This document shows, piece by piece, positions 2,990-9,380 of a stretch of DNA of 9,700 bases; position 1 is the stretch's first letter, and the number at the start of each line of letters is the position of its first letter. The notes under the pieces are model-generated. The model saw only the letters and a list, made by a program, of their open reading frames with translations, was not told the origin of the DNA and did not search any database. This stretch comes from Cyanobacteria bacterium HKST-UBA02. GTDB lineage: Bacteria > Cyanobacteriota > Vampirovibrionia > Obscuribacterales > Obscuribacteraceae. Made by a program: the position numbers and the translations under genes. The stretch is from assembly GCA_020431945.1 (NCBI GenBank), contig JAGQHH010000615.1:1-9700 (forward strand), written 5' to 3'.

Positions 2990-3154
2990 CTACTGGTAGT
3001 TGGAAGCATTCGAGGCTATCTCGCCGCGATAGTGGGTGCTCTGATCGTGCATGAACTGCCTGGCGTCGGAGACGCTCAGAGCAATCAGAGTAGCCAGAGC
3101 ACAAAGAAATATAAACCACTCCAGCGGTTTCAGGCTAAGCTCGTCCCTGTTCAT
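2990..3154 (-). CDS. Small single-pass membrane protein (54 aa), hypothetical
   Basis: A short reading frame begins MNRDELSLKPLEW and ends ASNYQ with TAG. AAGGAGGT (3159-3166) lies four bases before the ATG, one of the best ribosome binding sites in the window. Residues about 13-28 (WFIFLCALATLIALSV) form one hydrophobic helix, with a short charged N-terminus and a polar 25-residue C-terminal tail. No family is recognised. It reads toward the kinase gene, with the two stops 11 bases apart, and away from argC. A competing plus-strand frame (2975-3253) overlaps the kinase stop by ATGA but has no ribosome binding site. A partner or accessory role with the neighbouring kinase is possible but rests only on position. 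The size, signal and helix make it a better gene than the overlapping frame. Confidence 0.62.
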   Translation of the reverse strand: MNRDELSLKPLEWFIFLCALATLIALSVSDARQFMHDQSTHYRGEIASNASNYQ

Positions 3155-3249: not shown

Positions 3250-4287
3250 ATGATCAAAGTCGGAATCGTAGGCGCCACAGGATATACCGGACAGGAGCTG
3301 GTCCGGCTTCTTCTGCCGCACCCGGATGCCCGCATCGAGTGTCTCACTTCCAATTCATATAAAGGAAAGAAGTTCTCCAGCATCTTTCCCGCTTTCGAGA
3401 GCCTGGTGGACCTGGAGCTGATGAGCACCGACGACCTCGCCGAGATCATCGAGCGCTGTGACTTCGTTTTTTTCGCTCTACCTCACGGTATCGCCGCCGG
3501 GCTCCTGAAAAATCAGGCTCTGGCTGAGACCAGGGTGATCGATCTGGGCGCCGATTTCCGCCTGCGGAACGCCCGGGACTACCAGGTCTGGTATCAGCTC
3601 GAGCATCCCTGGCCGGAAGGGCTGAGCAAGAGCGTATACGGTCTCTCCGAATGGCGCCGGGATCGAATCCGAGAAGCCACCATAGTAGCCAATCCGGGCT
3701 GTTATGCCACCTCGGTGGAGCTCGCCCTGCTTCCCCTGGCCGAAGCCGGTCTACTGGGAGACACCATCGTCGACGCCAAGTCTGGAGTCTCGGGAGCCGG
3801 GCGCTCGGCTTCCATCGATACTCATTTCAATGAATGCAATGAGAGTATCAAGGCCTACAAAGTCGCCGCTCACCGCCACACACCGGAGATCGAGCAGGAG
3901 CTGGGTTCTTTCTCCGGGCAGCAGAAAAGAATAACTTTCACTCCCCACCTCATTCCGATCCAGAGGGGTATCCTCTCTACGATATATTGCAATCTTCCCG
4001 AGGGCGTCGGTATCGACGAGATCCGCTCCCTCTATAGAGAGTCCTATGCCAGCGAGCCTTTCGTCCGCCTGCTGGAGGATCGTCAGTCCCCGGAGACCCG
4101 CTGGGTAGCCGGTACCAATTACTGCGACCTGAGCATCAATATAGACGAGCGGACAGACCGGCTGATCATCATCTCTGCCCTGGATAACCTGATCAAAGGC
4201 GCTGCCGGTCAAGCAATACAAAATATGAACATAATGAGCAATTTCGACGAGACCAAAGGACTGAGCCTCCTTCCACGCTTTCCCTGA
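3250..4287 (+). CDS. argC: N-acetyl-gamma-glutamyl-phosphate reductase
   Basis: ArgC catalyses the NADPH-dependent reduction of N-acetylglutamyl-5-phosphate to the semialdehyde, the third step from glutamate to ornithine, in the cytoplasm. The 345-residue protein has the usual length and opens with the nucleotide-binding motif GATGYTGQELVRLL. The catalytic cysteine is Cys151 in ANPGCYATS. SGVSGAGR and HRHTPEIEQEL (His208, His210) are the other family signatures, and FTPHLIPIQRGIL completes the catalytic domain. ATG 3250 places the dinucleotide motif at its normal distance from the N-terminus, although the ribosome binding site is poor. It is the first gene of the arginine cluster, but a 247-base regulatory gap separates it from argJ, so the two may be separate transcription units. 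No intrinsic terminator directly follows its stop. Confidence 0.97.
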   Translation: MIKVGIVGATGYTGQELVRLLLPHPDARIECLTSNSYKGKKFSSIFPAFESLVDLELMSTDDLAEIIERCDFVFFALPHGIAAGLLKNQALAETRVIDLGADFRLRNARDYQVWYQLEHPWPEGLSKSVYGLSEWRRDRIREATIVANPGCYATSVELALLPLAEAGLLGDTIVDAKSGVSGAGRSASIDTHFNECNESIKAYKVAAHRHTPEIEQELGSFSGQQKRITFTPHLIPIQRGILSTIYCNLPEGVGIDEIRSLYRESYASEPFVRLLEDRQSPETRWVAGTNYCDLSINIDERTDRLIIISALDNLIKGAAGQAIQNMNIMSNFDETKGLSLLPRFP

Positions 4288-4320
4288 AGCCATTTCCGTA
4301 AAGCATTTCCAAACATTTTG

Positions 4321-4349
4321 TTGACACGGCTCCCGGACCGATGTTAACT
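4321..4349 (+). promoter_or_regulatory. Candidate sigma-70-type promoter for the argJ leader
   Basis: A perfect -35 TTGACA (4321-4326) is followed after 17 bases by TTAACT (4344-4349), which matches the -10 consensus at three of six positions. The predicted start point near 4356 lies only a few bases before the ATG of the Arg-rich mini-ORF. A second -35-like TTGACG at 4446-4451 has no acceptable -10 element. Confidence 0.45.
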
Positions 4350-4359
4350 TCCTTGCATA

Positions 4360-4449
4360 ATGAACAGCACCAGCAACAACTTCGCCCTCAGCCTCCGGCT
4401 CCGACGCCCTCGATTCTCAGCGAGCTCGGGGAAGTCCAGGCATAGTTGA
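4360..4449 (+). CDS. Putative Arg-rich leader peptide of the argJBF operon (29 codons)
   Basis: The mini-ORF reads MNSTSNNFALSLRLRRPRFS...KSRHS and ends with TGA 4447-4449. Four arginine codons (CGG, CGA, CGC, CGA; 4396-4413) fall within seven codons, and a fifth (AGG) is at 4438-4440. No ribosome binding site precedes the ATG. The predicted transcription start is only about 3-5 bases upstream, so it would be translated as a leaderless message. Leader peptides rich in the codon of the pathway's end product are the sensing element of transcription attenuators such as trp and his. The downstream terminator and competing pairing suit the same role. The overlapping frame at 4341-4445 (MLTSLHNEQHQQQ...) is also open but lacks such an Arg cluster. 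Expression is unproven. Confidence 0.42.
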   Translation: MNSTSNNFALSLRLRRPRFSASSGKSRHS

Positions 4450-4489
4450 CGCGCTAGTTTCGTCATCTTTCGAAGCCCCCGAGTATCGC
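4420..4489 (+). promoter_or_regulatory. Candidate antiterminator pairing in the argJ leader RNA
   Basis: GCGAGCTCGGGG (4420-4431) can pair with CCCCGAG (4477-4483), continuing by a G-U pair with 4484, a bulged A at 4485 and four pairs with TCGC (4486-4489). That takes up the 5' arm and most of the loop of the terminator at 4476-4505, so the two structures exclude each other. A ribosome at the mini-ORF stop would cover the left arm, while one held at the first Arg codons would leave it free. This is the expected logic for attenuation by arginine supply, derived by hand pairing. Confidence 0.42.
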
Positions 4490-4505
4490 TTACTCGGGGG
4501 TTTTT
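4476..4505 (+). terminator. Strong intrinsic terminator directly upstream of argJ
   Basis: CCCCCGAGTA (4476-4485) and TACTCGGGGG (4491-4500) form a perfect ten-pair stem with the five-base loop TCGCT, followed at once by TTTTT (4501-4505). This is a textbook Rho-independent terminator. It ends 29 bases before the argJ ATG, with no room for another promoter between them, so argJBF transcription probably has to pass through it. Confidence 0.9.
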
Positions 4506-4534
4506 GTCTTTGGCCATATCAGGGAATCAGGAAA

Positions 4535-5827
4535 ATGAAAACGACAATCAGCGCGATCAAAGGTGGAGTCACCGCAGCCCAGGGGTTCAAGGCTGCCGGA
4601 GAGCATGTCGGTCTCAAGCGCAAGAGAAAGGATCTGGCTATCCTGATGAGCGATCTGCCCTGCCAGTATGCCGGTACTTTCACCACCAGCACCGCCAAGG
4701 CAGCCCCGGTGCTCTGGAACAAAGAAATCCTCGAGAACGGCGCCCCGGTGAAAGCCCTGGTGGTAAACAGCGGTAACGCCAATTCCTGCACCGGAGCCCA
4801 GGGCTTCGTCCACACCCGGCAGATGGCTGAAGCTGTAGCCGAGCACACCGGATGCCAGAGCGAAGAGGTCCTGGTCGCCTCCACCGGCATCATCGGCGTT
4901 CCCCTTCCCATAGATGATGTCACCAGCGGAATCGCCATTGTGGCGCCGCTCCTGGGCTATTCGAAAGAGCACGGCAGCAGCGCCGCCGAAGCGATCATGA
5001 CCACCGACTCTTTTATCAAAGAAGCTGCCCTGCAATTCGAGATCGACGGCAAGCTCATCACCCTGGGCGCCATGGCCAAGGGCTCCGGGATGCTGCACCC
5101 GAACATGGCTACCATGCTCTCTTTCATCACCACCGACCTGAGCATCAGCCCGGCTCTCTTGCAGAAAGCCCTGAGCGCTTCGGTCTGCGGTACCTATAAC
5201 ATGATCTCGGTGGATGCCGACACCAGCACCAACGACATGGTGGCTATCCTCGCCAATGGGGCTGCCGGCAACCAGACTATCGACACGGAAAACGACGACT
5301 ACTGTCTCTTCGTAGCCGCCCTCAACGAGCTCAACGAGCATCTGGCCAAATCCATCGCCAGCGACGGGGAAGGTGCCACCAAGCTCATCGAGGTCGAAGT
5401 CAAAGGAGCCGCCTCTCTGGAAGACGCCAGAACCCTGGCCCGGGCGGTCGTCTCCTCCAACCTGGTCAAAACAGCTTTCTTCGCCAGCGATCCCAACTGG
5501 GGCAGAATCGTGGCCGCCATGGGTGCAACCGGCATCGGCTTCGATACCGGTGTCCTCTCCATCGAAATCGCCGGCGCCGGTCTTTCGAGCTATCTTCTCA
5601 AAGACGGTAATCCCTGCTGGATCGAAGAAGGCAAGGCGGCCTGCATTCTGGCGGCACCGGTGGTGAAGACCACTGTATTTATGGGCGGTGCCGCTCTGGA
5701 CAACGAAAACTATCATGACGCCCGGGCCTGGGGATGCGACCTCACCCACGAATATATCCAGCTCACCAGCAGATATCGGAGCAGTCATGTAGTCACCATT
5801 CCGGCAAAGTCTGAGGTGGTGGCATGA
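4535..5827 (+). CDS. argJ: Bifunctional ornithine acetyltransferase / N-acetylglutamate synthase
   Basis: ArgJ moves the acetyl group from N-acetylornithine to glutamate, closing the cyclic arginine pathway. Bifunctional members can also use acetyl-CoA. The 430-residue protein carries the autocleavage site of the family, KGSGMLHPNMA/TMLSF, with Thr193 the expected new N-terminal nucleophile of the beta chain. Thr117-Gly118 in STGIIG fit the oxyanion hole. DADTSTNDM and ASDPNWGRI are further signatures. It extends about 13 residues beyond the usual end (SHVVTIPAKSEVVA after YRS). AGGGAA (4521-4526) serves as ribosome binding site. It is the first gene of argJ-argB-argF and follows the putative attenuator. 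Its stop overlaps the argB start as ATGA. Whether it is mono- or bifunctional cannot be told from sequence; no argA is seen here. Confidence 0.96.
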   Translation: MKTTISAIKGGVTAAQGFKAAGEHVGLKRKRKDLAILMSDLPCQYAGTFTTSTAKAAPVLWNKEILENGAPVKALVVNSGNANSCTGAQGFVHTRQMAEAVAEHTGCQSEEVLVASTGIIGVPLPIDDVTSGIAIVAPLLGYSKEHGSSAAEAIMTTDSFIKEAALQFEIDGKLITLGAMAKGSGMLHPNMATMLSFITTDLSISPALLQKALSASVCGTYNMISVDADTSTNDMVAILANGAAGNQTIDTENDDYCLFVAALNELNEHLAKSIASDGEGATKLIEVEVKGAASLEDARTLARAVVSSNLVKTAFFASDPNWGRIVAAMGATGIGFDTGVLSIEIAGAGLSSYLLKDGNPCWIEEGKAACILAAPVVKTTVFMGGAALDNENYHDARAWGCDLTHEYIQLTSRYRSSHVVTIPAKSEVVA

Positions 5828-6609
5828 AACTCGTAGTGAAAATCGGCGGAAGCACCCTCACCTCCCCTGCCACTCTCGACTCGCTCGCGCCGCAACTGGC
5901 CAGCCTCGTCGAAGAAGGCGCCACTGTCTATATCGTCCACGGAGCCGGTCCGCATATAAGCGCCCGGATGCTCGAGCTCGGACTCACCCCGCGCTTCGAG
6001 AACGGTCTGAGGGTCACGGATGAAGCCACTCTCGAGGTGGTGAAAGCGGAGCTTCTGGCTGTCAATTCAGAGATAGCCGGGGTTCTCTCCTCGAACGGTC
6101 TGGACATAGAAGTGAAAGGACCCGAGACCGGAGTTTTCAAAGCGGTCAAAGCGAGCTCTGAAAATACCGACCTTGGTCTTGTGGGTGAAGTCACCGGTGT
6201 CGACCTCGACAGTCTCGAAAGCGGCAAAGTCTCTGTTATCGCGCCCCTGGGCTTCGACGGCAAGAAGTTCTACAACATCAATGCCGACCATGCCGCCATG
6301 GCTCTTGCCGGAGCTGTGGACGCCGACGCCCTTGTCTTTTTGAGCGATGTCGACGGCGTTCTTCTCGACCGCAACGATCCAGAATCCCTGATCAAGCAGC
6401 TCATGCCCGGTCAGGCAGAAGACCTGATCTCCTCCGGCTCTGTCCAGGGAGGCATGATCCAGAAATTGAAAAACAGTATCAAAGCTCTCACTCTCGGTGT
6501 CCGAAGGGTGTGCATAACCGATGGACGACGAGCCGGCTCGTTGATCGAAGCGGCTCTCAACCGTATGAATTTTGGAACCACCCTCTTGCAAGAAGGACAA
6601 CTGTCATGA
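5824..6609 (+). CDS. argB: Acetylglutamate kinase
   Basis: ArgB phosphorylates N-acetylglutamate with ATP, the second step of the pathway. The 261-residue protein has the amino-acid-kinase fold signatures: VKIGGS with Lys6; VHGAGPHIS (most relatives have VHGGGP); GLRVTDEATLEVV; YNINADHAAMALA with Asn153 and Asp155; FLSDVDGVL; and GGMIQKLKN with Lys214. The protein begins almost at the KIGG motif and so lacks the N-terminal helix that assembles arginine-inhibited hexameric kinases. It resembles in layout the short, arginine-insensitive E. coli type. GAGGTGG (5813-5819) is the ribosome binding site. The start overlaps the argJ stop by four bases, and its own stop overlaps the argF ATG in the same way, which points to translational coupling across the operon. 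Confidence 0.94.
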   Translation: MKLVVKIGGSTLTSPATLDSLAPQLASLVEEGATVYIVHGAGPHISARMLELGLTPRFENGLRVTDEATLEVVKAELLAVNSEIAGVLSSNGLDIEVKGPETGVFKAVKASSENTDLGLVGEVTGVDLDSLESGKVSVIAPLGFDGKKFYNINADHAAMALAGAVDADALVFLSDVDGVLLDRNDPESLIKQLMPGQAEDLISSGSVQGGMIQKLKNSIKALTLGVRRVCITDGRRAGSLIEAALNRMNFGTTLLQEGQLS

Positions 6610-7679
6610 AAACTCTCGACAAACCCGCAGTCAAATCTATCGTCAAAAACAAGAAAGAGGAGCAAAAGCTCTATAACTTCCCACCCAACCTCCTCGGTGG
6701 AATCTCCCAGAGAATGGCGCCTCCCGAGGGAGAATCGCCCCTGGCATTTGTCCTCAACGAAAATACCCTGAGAGGTCACGATCTGCTGGGTATCGAGCAG
6801 CTCACCAAAAGCGAGATCCAGCTCATCATCGATGTGGCGCTTCTTCTGAAAGCAAACAAGTTCGATGAGACCCAGACTCTTTTCGCCAAGGGTCAGACCC
6901 TGGCCATGCTCTTCGAGAAGCCTTCCCTGCGGACACGGTTCACTTTCGAAGCCGGCATGACCCAGCTCGGCGGGCATGCAGTCAATCTCGAGACCAAGCT
7001 CGGCGAAAGAGAGCCGGTCTCGGATGTGGCCAAGAATCTCGACCGGTGGGTGGACGGGATCATGGCCCGGACCTTCTCGCACAAGACCATCCTGGATCTC
7101 GCTGAAAATGCCTCCATCCCCGTGGTCAACGGTCTCTCCGACCGGGAGCACCCCTGCCAGGCACTCTGTGATTTCATGACCATCTTCGAGCACAAAGGCA
7201 ATCTGGAAGACGTCAAAATCGTCTTTGTCGGAGACGGCAATAATGTCGCCCAGTCCCTGATGCTCACCGCAGCCAAGCTCGGATCGACTTTCATCCTGGC
7301 CTGCCCGGCAGGCTATATGCCCGCAGATGACATCATCGAAAAGGCTATGACCGATGCCGCCGTCTCCGGCGCGACTATAAAGATCACCCACGAGCCCATG
7401 GGGGCGGTCCACGATGCCGATGTCATCTACACCGATACATGGGTGTCCATGGGACAGGAAAACGAGATGAGAAAAAGGGAGCTCGCCTTCGAGAAATTCC
7501 AGGTGGACGAGACCCTCATGAAACTCGCCAAGCACGACGCCATCGTCATGCATTGCCTGCCCGCCCACCGGGGTCAGGAAGTGGTGAGCGAAGTCCTGGA
7601 CGGACCGCAATCGGTAATTTACGATCAGGCTGAAAACAGGCTTCATGCTCAGAAGGCAATCATCTCCCTGATCATGTAA
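6606..7679 (+). CDS. argF: Ornithine carbamoyltransferase with an N-terminal extension
   Basis: The enzyme condenses ornithine with carbamoyl phosphate to give citrulline. ATG 6606 overlaps the argB stop (ATGA) and has AAGGA (6593-6597) eight bases upstream, giving 357 residues. An upstream in-frame ATG at 6510 lies inside argB and is not favoured. Signatures: carbamoyl-phosphate loop EKPSLRTRFTFE (Ser107-Arg111), HPCQ at His182, DGNNVAQS at Asp210, ornithine loop SMG at 281-283, and HCLPAHRG with Cys317. SMG and HCLP point to ornithine rather than aspartate carbamoyltransferase. The first 50 or so residues (MKTLDKPAVKSIVKNKKEEQ...) are lysine-rich and precede the point where most relatives begin, at GHDLLGIEQLTKSE. 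No terminator is evident before the convergent gene at 7689. Confidence 0.96.
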   Translation: MKTLDKPAVKSIVKNKKEEQKLYNFPPNLLGGISQRMAPPEGESPLAFVLNENTLRGHDLLGIEQLTKSEIQLIIDVALLLKANKFDETQTLFAKGQTLAMLFEKPSLRTRFTFEAGMTQLGGHAVNLETKLGEREPVSDVAKNLDRWVDGIMARTFSHKTILDLAENASIPVVNGLSDREHPCQALCDFMTIFEHKGNLEDVKIVFVGDGNNVAQSLMLTAAKLGSTFILACPAGYMPADDIIEKAMTDAAVSGATIKITHEPMGAVHDADVIYTDTWVSMGQENEMRKRELAFEKFQVDETLMKLAKHDAIVMHCLPAHRGQEVVSEVLDGPQSVIYDQAENRLHAQKAIISLIM

Positions 7680-7688
7680 TTTTCTCGA

Positions 7689-9101
7689 CTATCTGCCGAC
7701 CCGGCGCATGGAGAGCATATCTCGTGCCGGATCGGGAGCTCCTGCAGTGCCTCCGATCTCGATATCCACCGCCAGTCCGCCGCTGTAATAGCTCTTGCGC
7801 GGCTGAGCCGTGAGGGTGCCTCCATTGAAACCCCGGAAGAGATTGAAAGCGCTCCCTCCCGGATCACTCAGGGTCAAATGCGTGCCCAGGCGCCCTTTGC
7901 CAAGACCGGAAGCGAAGTGCTCGTCTCCGCCATATTCCCTGATCTCGCACCAGTTGAGAGGCGTCCCGGCCAGAGGCTGACCTCCGTGCTTGCCGCCATA
8001 CTCGGTGCCCAGGAAGCGCACATTATCGGTGATGATAATCACCGGTGAGAGACCGCCTGTGATACTGGTATCCGATACCACTACGAGCTGAGACTCCGGA
8101 GAGAGCCCCGGGGTGAACGGAGACCTGTCCATGGTGCGTCTGGAGATCTTGCCGTCCTTGCCGAACTCGTAGAGACAGAACTGACTGCCGCCCCAGGAGA
8201 AGGTCTCATCGATCATCGCCATGACCGAACCGAGCTTCGGTCTGAGATTGCCGTTACGCAAGAAGCAATAAAGATGCTCGGCGAGCTGATTGCTGGTGGT
8301 CGCCGGCACCTTGGGCTGACAGCGACGCATCCGGGCATCTCGATCCTGGGGATAGTCACCATCGAAGGCTTTATAGATCGTCACCCGGCGATCGCAGAAT
8401 GTATTGTCCTTCAATAGATCTCTCCAGGACTGCATTCCCCACACGGGGCCGCCGGTGAAGCGCAGGGTCATCACTCCCCGGGGTCCGGAGTCTTCCATGC
8501 TGTATGGCTGACAGCAGACCACATATTTCATATCCGGGCTCAAGCTCAGACCGCCCTTTGGCGCATCGGTGCGGGTGACCGTGCAAACAAGACGGACTAT
8601 CGAGCTCACTCGCCTCTCGTCAGCCTTCTTGAATCGCGAGGCAGTGACGATCCTGGAAGAAGAGCTGAGACCGGCGAAGTAGAAGGACTTCTTACCCACC
8701 GGAATATTCATGAACGGCTTGTACATACCGCCCTGGCTCTGCTCCGGCCGGACCCGGGCATAAGGCAGAGTATGCTCCGGCTCCGGGATGCCGATAGTGG
8801 TGGTGCCGTCATCTTTGAGCCAGCCGCACTCCAGATTCACCGACTTGAGACGCAAATTGGCTGGAAGATGGGACTTGAGATAGGCGGTGACATCCTTGAG
8901 AGGCTCTACCCTGGCGCCATCCATATCTCTGGCTTCGCCGCCGCCGACGGCGGCGGCAAGTGTCTTATTCAGACGCTTGACCGTCATGAATAGAAAAAGT
9001 CGGTCACGATCGACCAGAGACATCATGGTGGCATTCTCCAGAGCACCGGCAACAATGGTGTTCTGACGGATGGTGCCGGTGAGGGTATTGATACCCGTCA
9101 C
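7689..9101 (-). CDS. Large distal part of an interrupted Tad-like gene (hypothetical globular region)
   Basis: This frame is open for 470 codons from GTG 9101 and continues exactly the frame of the 88-codon TadE/TadG-like segment upstream, with only TGA (9114-9116) between. Read through, one 563-residue protein would run ...ATLARD-X-EPLPVTGINTLTGTIR... The GTG has no credible ribosome binding site and lies inside a hairpin arm, so independent initiation looks poor. It begins with a short helical part (VDRDRLFLFMTVKRLNKTL), then a long, probably beta-rich region with scattered cysteines (YVVCCQPYS, NWCEIREYGG) and Gly/Asp turns. I recognise no domain. With the upstream anchor it would be a soluble domain outside the membrane. 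The frame stays open over about 1.4 kb, which suggests a recent stop, readthrough or a sequence error rather than old decay. Confidence 0.75.
   Translation of the reverse strand: MTGINTLTGTIRQNTIVAGALENATMMSLVDRDRLFLFMTVKRLNKTLAAAVGGGEARDMDGARVEPLKDVTAYLKSHLPANLRLKSVNLECGWLKDDGTTTIGIPEPEHTLPYARVRPEQSQGGMYKPFMNIPVGKKSFYFAGLSSSSRIVTASRFKKADERRVSSIVRLVCTVTRTDAPKGGLSLSPDMKYVVCCQPYSMEDSGPRGVMTLRFTGGPVWGMQSWRDLLKDNTFCDRRVTIYKAFDGDYPQDRDARMRRCQPKVPATTSNQLAEHLYCFLRNGNLRPKLGSVMAMIDETFSWGGSQFCLYEFGKDGKISRRTMDRSPFTPGLSPESQLVVVSDTSITGGLSPVIIITDNVRFLGTEYGGKHGGQPLAGTPLNWCEIREYGGDEHFASGLGKGRLGTHLTLSDPGGSAFNLFRGFNGGTLTAQPRKSYYSGGLAVDIEIGGTAGAPDPARDMLSMRRVGR
7696..7735. repeat. Imperfect 12-bp inverted repeat at the convergent end of argF and the Tad-like gene
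   Basis: CCGACCCGGCGC (7696-7707) pairs with GTGCCGGATCGG (7724-7735) except for one mismatch and one G-U pair, with a 16-base loop. It lies inside the last codons of the minus-strand gene, 17 bases past the argF stop. There is no T-run on either strand, so it is not a typical intrinsic terminator, but it could act as a shared 3'-end hairpin. Confidence 0.3.
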
Positions 9102-9138
9102 CGGCAGAGGCTCTCAATCCCGGGCGAGAGTCGCCCGG
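9075..9138 (-). other. Two strong hairpins flanking the in-frame UGA (possible recoding element)
   Basis: On the minus strand CCGGGCGA (9138-9131) and TCGCCCGG (9127-9120) form a perfect eight-pair stem around CTC, ending three bases before TGA (9116-9114). Eight bases after the TGA, GCCGGTGA-C-GGGTAT (9105-9091) pairs with ATACCC-TCACCGGC (9088-9075) over 14 pairs with one bulged C and a tiny loop. No T-run follows, so it is not an intrinsic terminator. Downstream stems about eight bases from a stop stimulate readthrough in known viral and animal cases, and bacterial SECIS elements also lie just after UGA. Function here is inference. Confidence 0.4.
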
Positions 9139-9380
9139 CCCACAGGAGCAAAATTGCTCAATGAGACATAGCCGAAATGCGGATCCGCCACCACTATTCG
9201 CGACAGGTCGTTGGCCGCCACCAGACAGGCTGCCTCGACCACGCTGCTGGCCCGGTCCTTATCCACGAAGTAGAGCCCCAGCTGGCTCTGGACGATAAGA
9301 ACAGGAACCACGATAAAGGCGATAACCACCATGATCAATACCAGCAAATTGCCGCGCCGGCTGCGTAATCTCACTCTCAT
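9114..9380 (-). CDS. TadE/TadG-like membrane-anchored N-terminal segment (88 codons before an in-frame TGA)
   Basis: The start ATG 9380 has AGGAGG (9388-9393) seven bases upstream, overlapping the stop of the preceding gene. The protein begins with the basic stretch MRVRLRSRRGN, a hydrophobic helix at about 11-31 (LLVLIMVVIAFIVVPVLIVQ), then SQLGLYFVDKDRASSVVEAACLVAANDLSRIV. That RRG-helix-AA pattern resembles TadE/TadG-type pilus assembly proteins, whose anchor is followed by a helix rich in Ala. The segment stops at TGA, but the same frame continues for 474 codons with a plausible protein (GAT-TGA-GAG; one base from GAT-GGA-GAG, Asp-Gly-Glu). It is probably the N-terminus of a longer protein cut by a nonsense change, recoding or a sequence error. 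The other genes here use TGA as a true stop. Confidence 0.7.
   Translation of the reverse strand: MRVRLRSRRGNLLVLIMVVIAFIVVPVLIVQSQLGLYFVDKDRASSVVEAACLVAANDLSRIVVADPHFGYVSLSNFAPVGRATLARD

Follow-up and report, generated by a model that had tools for sequence, protein, structure and literature searches.

In the window (the whole 9,700-nucleotide stretch of DNA that was analysed), the arginine biosynthesis genes argC, argJ, argB and argF all lie on the same strand, and argC is separated from argJ by a gap of 247 nt. The four genes are as follows.

3250..4287, plus strand: argC (N-acetyl-gamma-glutamyl-phosphate reductase), the upstream gene, with Pfam Semialdhyde_dh domains
4535..5827, plus strand: argJ (ornithine acetyltransferase / N-acetylglutamate synthase), the first gene under the proposed control, Pfam ArgJ at 452.5 bits
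5824..6609, plus strand: argB (N-acetylglutamate kinase, amino acid kinase family), Pfam AA_kinase
6606..7679, plus strand: argF (ornithine carbamoyltransferase), Pfam OTCace and OTCace_N in the ORF 6510-7679

The argC product shares 93% identity with a protein named as an ArgC-type reductase from a Candidatus Melainabacteria MAG and 65% identity with a protein from an Obscuribacterales MAG. Among the 120 ArgJ matches listed, the named entries come from Melainabacteria, Cyanobacteria and Obscuribacterales, and also from Clostridia. The best 80 of the 426 loci returned when genome contigs were searched for ArgJ are all distant (at most 46% identity), the top tblastn plasmid matches of argB carry an argB annotation at 38-39% identity, and no close relative was found in the viral, plasmid and phage collections. 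In one phage-collection record from human faeces (L087), an ORF of acetyltransferase type and an argB-like kinase come after argC (ORFs at 1100-2200), a gene order other than that of the window.

Translation of argF likely begins at the ATG at 6606, which is preceded by AAGGA, and the start of argJ at 4535 is likely, though not certain. The argJ frame is open in the 5' direction through the terminator described below as far as a TGA at 4361 (4364-4534, plus strand), and this is taken to be a coincidence. A longer ArgJ was rejected on the grounds that the upstream frame contains no ATG, GTG or TTG and that the closest homologue among the matches listed begins at the same place. Longer N termini occur in four ArgJ homologues (P0002, P0011, P0018 and P0070).

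The gap between argC and argJ and the elements within it are the subject of the analysis that follows.

4321..4350, plus strand: candidate promoter, TTGACA at 4321-4326 and TG-T-TAACTT at 4342-4350 with 18-nt spacing, a consensus match only
4341..4445, plus strand: overlapping alternative ORF of 34 codons and a stop with Pro and Gln clusters, from the sequence and a switch scan
4360..4449, plus strand: candidate leader peptide ORF of 29 codons and a stop, from the sequence
4396..4413, plus strand: Arg codon cluster CGG-CTC-CGA-CGC-CCT-CGA (R13 L14 R15 R16 P17 R18), from the sequence
4408..4431, plus strand: segment 1:2 (protector), 4408-4413 with 4426-4431, within the Arg cluster, from folding
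4420..4489, plus strand: segment 2:3 (antiterminator), 4420-4431 with 4477-4489, from folding and shuffles
4472..4508, plus strand: segment 3:4, intrinsic terminator with a 14-bp stem, a 5-nt loop and a T tail, from a terminator scan and folding

An intrinsic terminator thus lies between the candidate promoter and the first structural gene. Its stem-loop (4472-4504, -24.0 kcal/mol) has 14 uninterrupted pairs, two of which are G-U, and is followed by the T tail; it begins 185 nt after argC and ends 30 nt before the argJ ATG. The original prediction, which had placed a perfect terminator shortly before argJ and had found no promoter that fits between the two, is borne out on both points, the best promoter match there being 4+4 of 12 positions with 15-nt spacing and a start inside argJ. 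Upstream of the terminator, the TTGACA that had been read as a promoter element is exact (6/6 for a -35), and its use as a promoter is open to doubt since the -10 is weak. The best -10, TG-T-TAACTT at 18 nt, matches at 3/6 with an extended TG, the alternative TTAACT at 17 nt also matches at 3/6, and the candidate promoter is absent from the output of a stricter consensus scanner run on the window. A transcript initiated at this promoter is predicted to start at about 4356-4357.

Translation of the candidate leader ORF gives MNSTSNNFALSLRLRRPRFSASSGKSRHS. Four of the six codons from 13 to 18 specify Arg (4396, 4402, 4405 and 4411, which are codons 13, 15, 16 and 18), and a further Arg codon lies at 4438, so that the mini-ORF with an Arg cluster reported earlier from this DNA is indeed present and its clustered codons correspond to the end product of the operon, arginine. 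The ORF runs on past segment 2 to its stop codon, and a ribosome positioned on that codon leaves segment 2 behind. Inspection of the sequence before the start at 4360 revealed no Shine-Dalgarno sequence; strong Shine-Dalgarno sequences are present elsewhere in the organism, for example AAAGGAGGTTGCG in front of a small ORF that neighbours argC. With an RNA start near 4357, as predicted from the weak promoter match, leaderless translation of the leader ORF would be plausible by analogy with trpL of Sinorhizobium meliloti, where, according to the accessible text of the report, the attenuator RNA begins at the ATG of the leader ORF and is leaderless (PMC7298713). That system differs from the window in sensing Trp, in belonging to an alphaproteobacterium and in having a reported 5' end, whereas the start in the window is predicted only.

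The 12-base arm that had been proposed to compete with the terminator does so in the predicted folds, forming 12 pairs with 4477-4489 that are interrupted by one bulged A at 4485 (-23.6). It engages the 5' arm of the terminator plus most of its loop, and pairing to the loop should hinder nucleation of the hairpin. Folding also revealed a third helix, 1:2, which the original prediction had overlooked and in which codons of the Arg cluster pair with the antiterminator arm; its pair probabilities are 0.86-0.92 in an RNA from 4357 to 4470 with no ribosome.

The effect of ribosome position was modelled by masking the leader as far as position +12 relative to the first base of the A-site codon and folding the free RNA. 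With the RNA ending at 4490, short of the 3' arm of the terminator, the mean probability of the 12 named antiterminator pairs stays at 0.98-0.99 while the A site holds any of codons 3-17 and then drops to 0.66 (codon 18), 0.49 (codon 19), 0.02 (codon 20) and 0.00 beyond. In these predicted folds the antiterminator is therefore free with the ribosome at the Arg codons and blocked once it has moved past them, and the edge coincides with the end of the Arg cluster (codons 13-18), shifting by at most two codons for footprints from +9 to +16. When no ribosome is present, 1:2 forms; the probability of the antiterminator is 0.01 for an RNA end of 4488, rises to 0.61-0.64 at 4490-4491 and falls back through 0.43 (4494) to 0.00 (4497), and it is the terminator that prevails. 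The terminator forms about equally fast with a ribosome on codon 22 and on the stop codon (0.50 versus 0.50 at 4497). In folds of the full-length leader the terminator is favoured almost wherever the ribosome stands, with codon 12 as the exception and codons 10-11 intermediate, which implies that the switch depends on folding order. Taken as models, the folds support three mutually exclusive helices as in classic attenuation. A first measure of arm pairing was discarded, as it was blurred by local pairs just 5' of the terminator and gave no clean edge in the window (11.6 to codon 18, 7.9-8.4 at codons 20-23 and 2.0 at the stop); it was replaced by the 12 named pairs and by pairs at least 20 nt apart.

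The second of these replacements allowed the window to be compared with six leaders of E. coli K-12 on a shared measure, namely the expected number of pairs between the terminator 5' arm plus loop and bases at least 20 nt upstream (the ilvL hairpin was located by folding). In five of the six leaders, the antiterminator disappears with the ribosome at the regulatory codons or immediately after them. The values fall from 8.0 at Thr15 through 5.0 at Thr16 to 0.6 at Gly17 in thrL; from 6.2 at codons 9-14 through 5.0 at codon 15 to 0.8 at codon 16 in leuL, whose Leu run spans codons 10-13; from 5.0 at Trp11 and Arg12 through 4.0 to 0.2 in trpL; from 9.2 through 7.4 (Phe14) and 4.3 to 0 in pheL; and from 9.7 at Ile18 through 8.0 and 5.2 to 3.5 in ilvL, with a rebound to 4.7 at codon 24. 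No switch is seen in hisL, which stays at 3.2-4.3 after the first few codons. The window gives 12.8-12.9 at codons 3-16, 12.0 at Pro17, 8.2 at Arg18, 6.1 at codon 19, 5.8 at codon 20, 6.4-7.4 at codons 21-23, 3.6 at codons 24-25 and 0 from codon 28. Its edge is at the Arg cluster and is less sharp than those of thr, leu, trp and phe because the arm enters weaker substitute pairings instead. The RNA logic that had been proposed for an arginine stall therefore stands as regards the exclusive helices and the loss of the antiterminator where the Arg cluster ends, both from folding, and is weakened as regards the sharpness of that loss.

Other properties of the E. coli leaders help in judging the window. 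In all six leaders, as in the window, a short ORF has clustered codons for the end product, and in all but hisL the helix alternative to the terminator is lost near these codons. The full-length folds of thr, leu, trp and his are dominated by the terminator at every ribosome position (phe dips), and the preference of the window for the terminator at equilibrium is for this reason no argument against an attenuator. With no ribosome and the 3' arm missing, the antiterminator of the window is poorly shut off (8.6 of 12.9), an incompleteness that it shares with thr and ilv and that distinguishes it from leu, phe and his. The window is also unlike the E. coli leaders in that it concerns arginine, lacks a Shine-Dalgarno sequence, has a blunter edge, lies inside an arg cluster after argC and comes from another phylum. 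A further difference is the position of the stop codon downstream of segment 2; in trpL, a ribosome on the stop codon does not leave segment 2 behind.

The best explanation of the arrangement is ribosome-mediated attenuation of transcription, as in trp, thr and leu, by which charged tRNA-Arg would be sensed and argJBF controlled. The probability of this reading is put at about 0.57, reduced from 0.6 because the shared scan gave a blunter edge and the terminator formed as fast with a ribosome on codon 22 as with one on the stop codon. RNA polymerase would start near 4357, or arrive by read-through from argC, and the 29-codon leader would be translated by a ribosome. When arginine is plentiful, the ribosome would pass codon 18 and cover segment 2, which would allow the 3:4 terminator to form at 4472-4508 and end transcription before argJ. 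When arginine is short, the ribosome would stall at R13-R16, or perhaps R18, and disrupt the 1:2 helix; the freed segment 2 would then capture the 5' arm and loop of the terminator before the 3' arm is made, and polymerase would continue into argJBF.

The alternative that survives best is that the hairpin is a plain intrinsic terminator of the argC transcript, or of a small RNA from 4357, with argJ served by unregulated partial read-through or by a promoter invisible to a consensus scan, and with the ORF and the pairing being incidental. The strength of the terminator, its position after argC and a leader ORF that lacks a Shine-Dalgarno sequence are all compatible with this explanation, and a TTGACG at 4446 (5/6 for a -35, with a poor -10 of 3/6) could start transcription within the hairpin. 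Clustered short ORFs before terminators also arise by chance. Of 113 strong terminators taken as a natural background (111 sequences, 967,078 bases, with the window and the E. coli stretches included and the duplicates L081-L083 left out), 35 are preceded by some mini-ORF in which four of seven codons specify some one amino acid. Among 3000 dinucleotide shuffles of 4300-4455, scored for ORFs of 10-60 codons with at least four such codons in seven, an Arg cluster appeared in 13 with an ATG-initiated ORF and in 50 when GTG and TTG starts were counted, and a cluster of any one amino acid in an ATG-initiated ORF appeared in 63. The Arg cluster alone is therefore only suggestive.

Two points argue against a plain terminator. 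The hairpin is located within the arg cluster immediately 5' of argJ and is followed by no promoter that fits, and an antiterminator of 12 pairs that falls at the switch position is improbable. Pairing with 4472-4490 as good as that observed occurred in 6 of the 3000 shuffles, and in none of them together with an Arg cluster. When the codons of the leader ORF itself were permuted 5000 times, the Arg cluster was recovered 448 times, the pairing 32 times and both 3 times. Elsewhere in the window, 2658 pieces of 93 nt were tried and none pairs as well, though the best comes close (-23.2 versus -23.6). The antiterminator pairing is thus unlikely to be due to chance. The fold of 4356-4510 was matched by 0 of 200 shuffles (z -3.56), a value that includes the terminator itself. 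On balance a plain terminator is unlikely, and it is still the rival that deserves the most weight.

The same background places a limit on what the combination of elements can establish. For some amino acid and start codon, a switch score of at least 8 was obtained for 10 of the 113 terminators, which are those of the window, thrL and pheL and seven others (L041, L098, L045, L107, L103, L022 and L096), and the window is outscored by L041, which has a Thr cluster and starts at TTG. The composite of elements alone is therefore not proof of attenuation, and it gains weight in the window from its intergenic place, its ATG start and the match between the codons and the pathway. The terminator in L045 (about 2602-2817) lies upstream of an argJ and is itself preceded by an Arg-rich mini-ORF, which we take to overlap the apparent end of secA, as judged by motif; that mini-ORF is most likely due to chance.

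A leader-peptide attenuator could also respond to a signal other than arginine, either through the overlapping ORF or through a stall of the drug or nascent-chain type at R-L-R. The overlapping ORF (ATG 4341, also TTG 4353, stop at 4443) has four Pro codons in seven and four Gln codons in seven, these clusters fall in the zone that permits the antiterminator, and its switch score is the same as that of the frame starting at 4360. An RNA beginning at about 4357, a start that is predicted only, would nevertheless omit both the ATG at 4341 and the TTG at 4353. R13-L14-R15 fits the Arg-Leu-Arg motif that the accessible text of one source describes in antibiotic leader peptides (PMC8632094), but no resistance gene lies downstream within the window and the genes that do lie there make arginine. 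Such a signal is accordingly considered improbable. Control of the terminator by a ligand or protein (a T-box, a riboswitch or a repressor-bound antiterminator) is the least probable explanation, since no Rfam family, T-box and riboswitch families included, reached its gathering score in the window, even though a terminator with an alternative helix fits any such mechanism and T-boxes govern arginine genes in some species according to the available part of one report (PMC1262725). Sub-threshold Rfam matches (for example His_leader, 17 bits against a cut-off of 49) were set aside; they cover mainly the terminator hairpin and are found on either strand.

The documented cases of classic leader-peptide attenuation are operons of Trp, His, Leu, Thr, Phe and Ile/Val, and arginine synthesis is usually ascribed to repression by ArgR/AhrC. 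An attenuator reading charged tRNA-Arg would thus use a mechanism that is known already, and its amino acid and its lineage are unusual. Among the literature matches listed, which were accessible in part and took in few subscription papers, no description was found of an attenuator of arginine biosynthesis that uses Arg codons and an intrinsic terminator. A close parallel for the codons is orf34 in the leader of Salmonella speF, where Arg codons likewise sense the arginine supply and their change to Lys abolishes control, as stated in the accessible text (PMC6386406). The speF system differs from the window in that the gene encodes ornithine decarboxylase and control involves Rho-dependent termination, masking of the RBS and RNase G rather than an intrinsic terminator before biosynthesis genes (PMC6386406, same text). 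For carA of Pseudomonas aeruginosa, a gene that serves both arginine and pyrimidine synthesis, the accessible part of the source describes a leader peptide and possible attenuation, as in the window; there, however, attenuation is tied to pyrimidines, arginine acts transcriptionally, and that part of the source does not describe a mechanism based on Arg codons (PMC4997734). Arginine T-boxes resemble the candidate in controlling arginine operons at the RNA level according to amino acid supply and differ from it in that the leader RNA binds tRNA directly, and a survey of Actinobacteria did not find a conserved RNA structure before arginine operons there, mentioning arginine T-boxes elsewhere (both from the available part of PMC1262725); the Rfam search detected no T-box in the window.

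With regard to lineage, Naville and Gautheret (2010) state, in the part of their paper that was accessible, that, ermC excepted, they knew of demonstrated leader-peptide systems in Proteobacteria and Actinobacteria only, to which they add Firmicutes (PMC2965389). If the proposed reading is true, an arginine attenuator in Melainabacteria would add both an amino acid and a lineage to leader-peptide attenuation and would suggest a repeated origin of the mechanism. The fullest form of the proposal, in which an intrinsic-terminator attenuator in the Melainabacteria line reads arginyl-tRNA, acts on argJBF through a leaderless leader peptide and leaves argC outside its control, is held tentatively, at somewhat less than even odds.

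A few other features of the window lie outside the leader. The small ORF beside argC mentioned above (2990-3154, minus strand) encodes 54 aa, is divergent from argC and has its strong Shine-Dalgarno sequence directly before the start (AAAGGAGGTTGCG-ATG); it falls below the 80-aa lower limit of the ORF list for the window, and its product likely has one membrane helix, as judged by eye. Beyond argF, two adjacent ORFs on the minus strand, 7689-9101 (470 aa) and 9114-9380 (88 aa), gave no Pfam match. The N-terminal hydrophobic stretch of the 88-aa product gives the impression of a pilin-type anchor.
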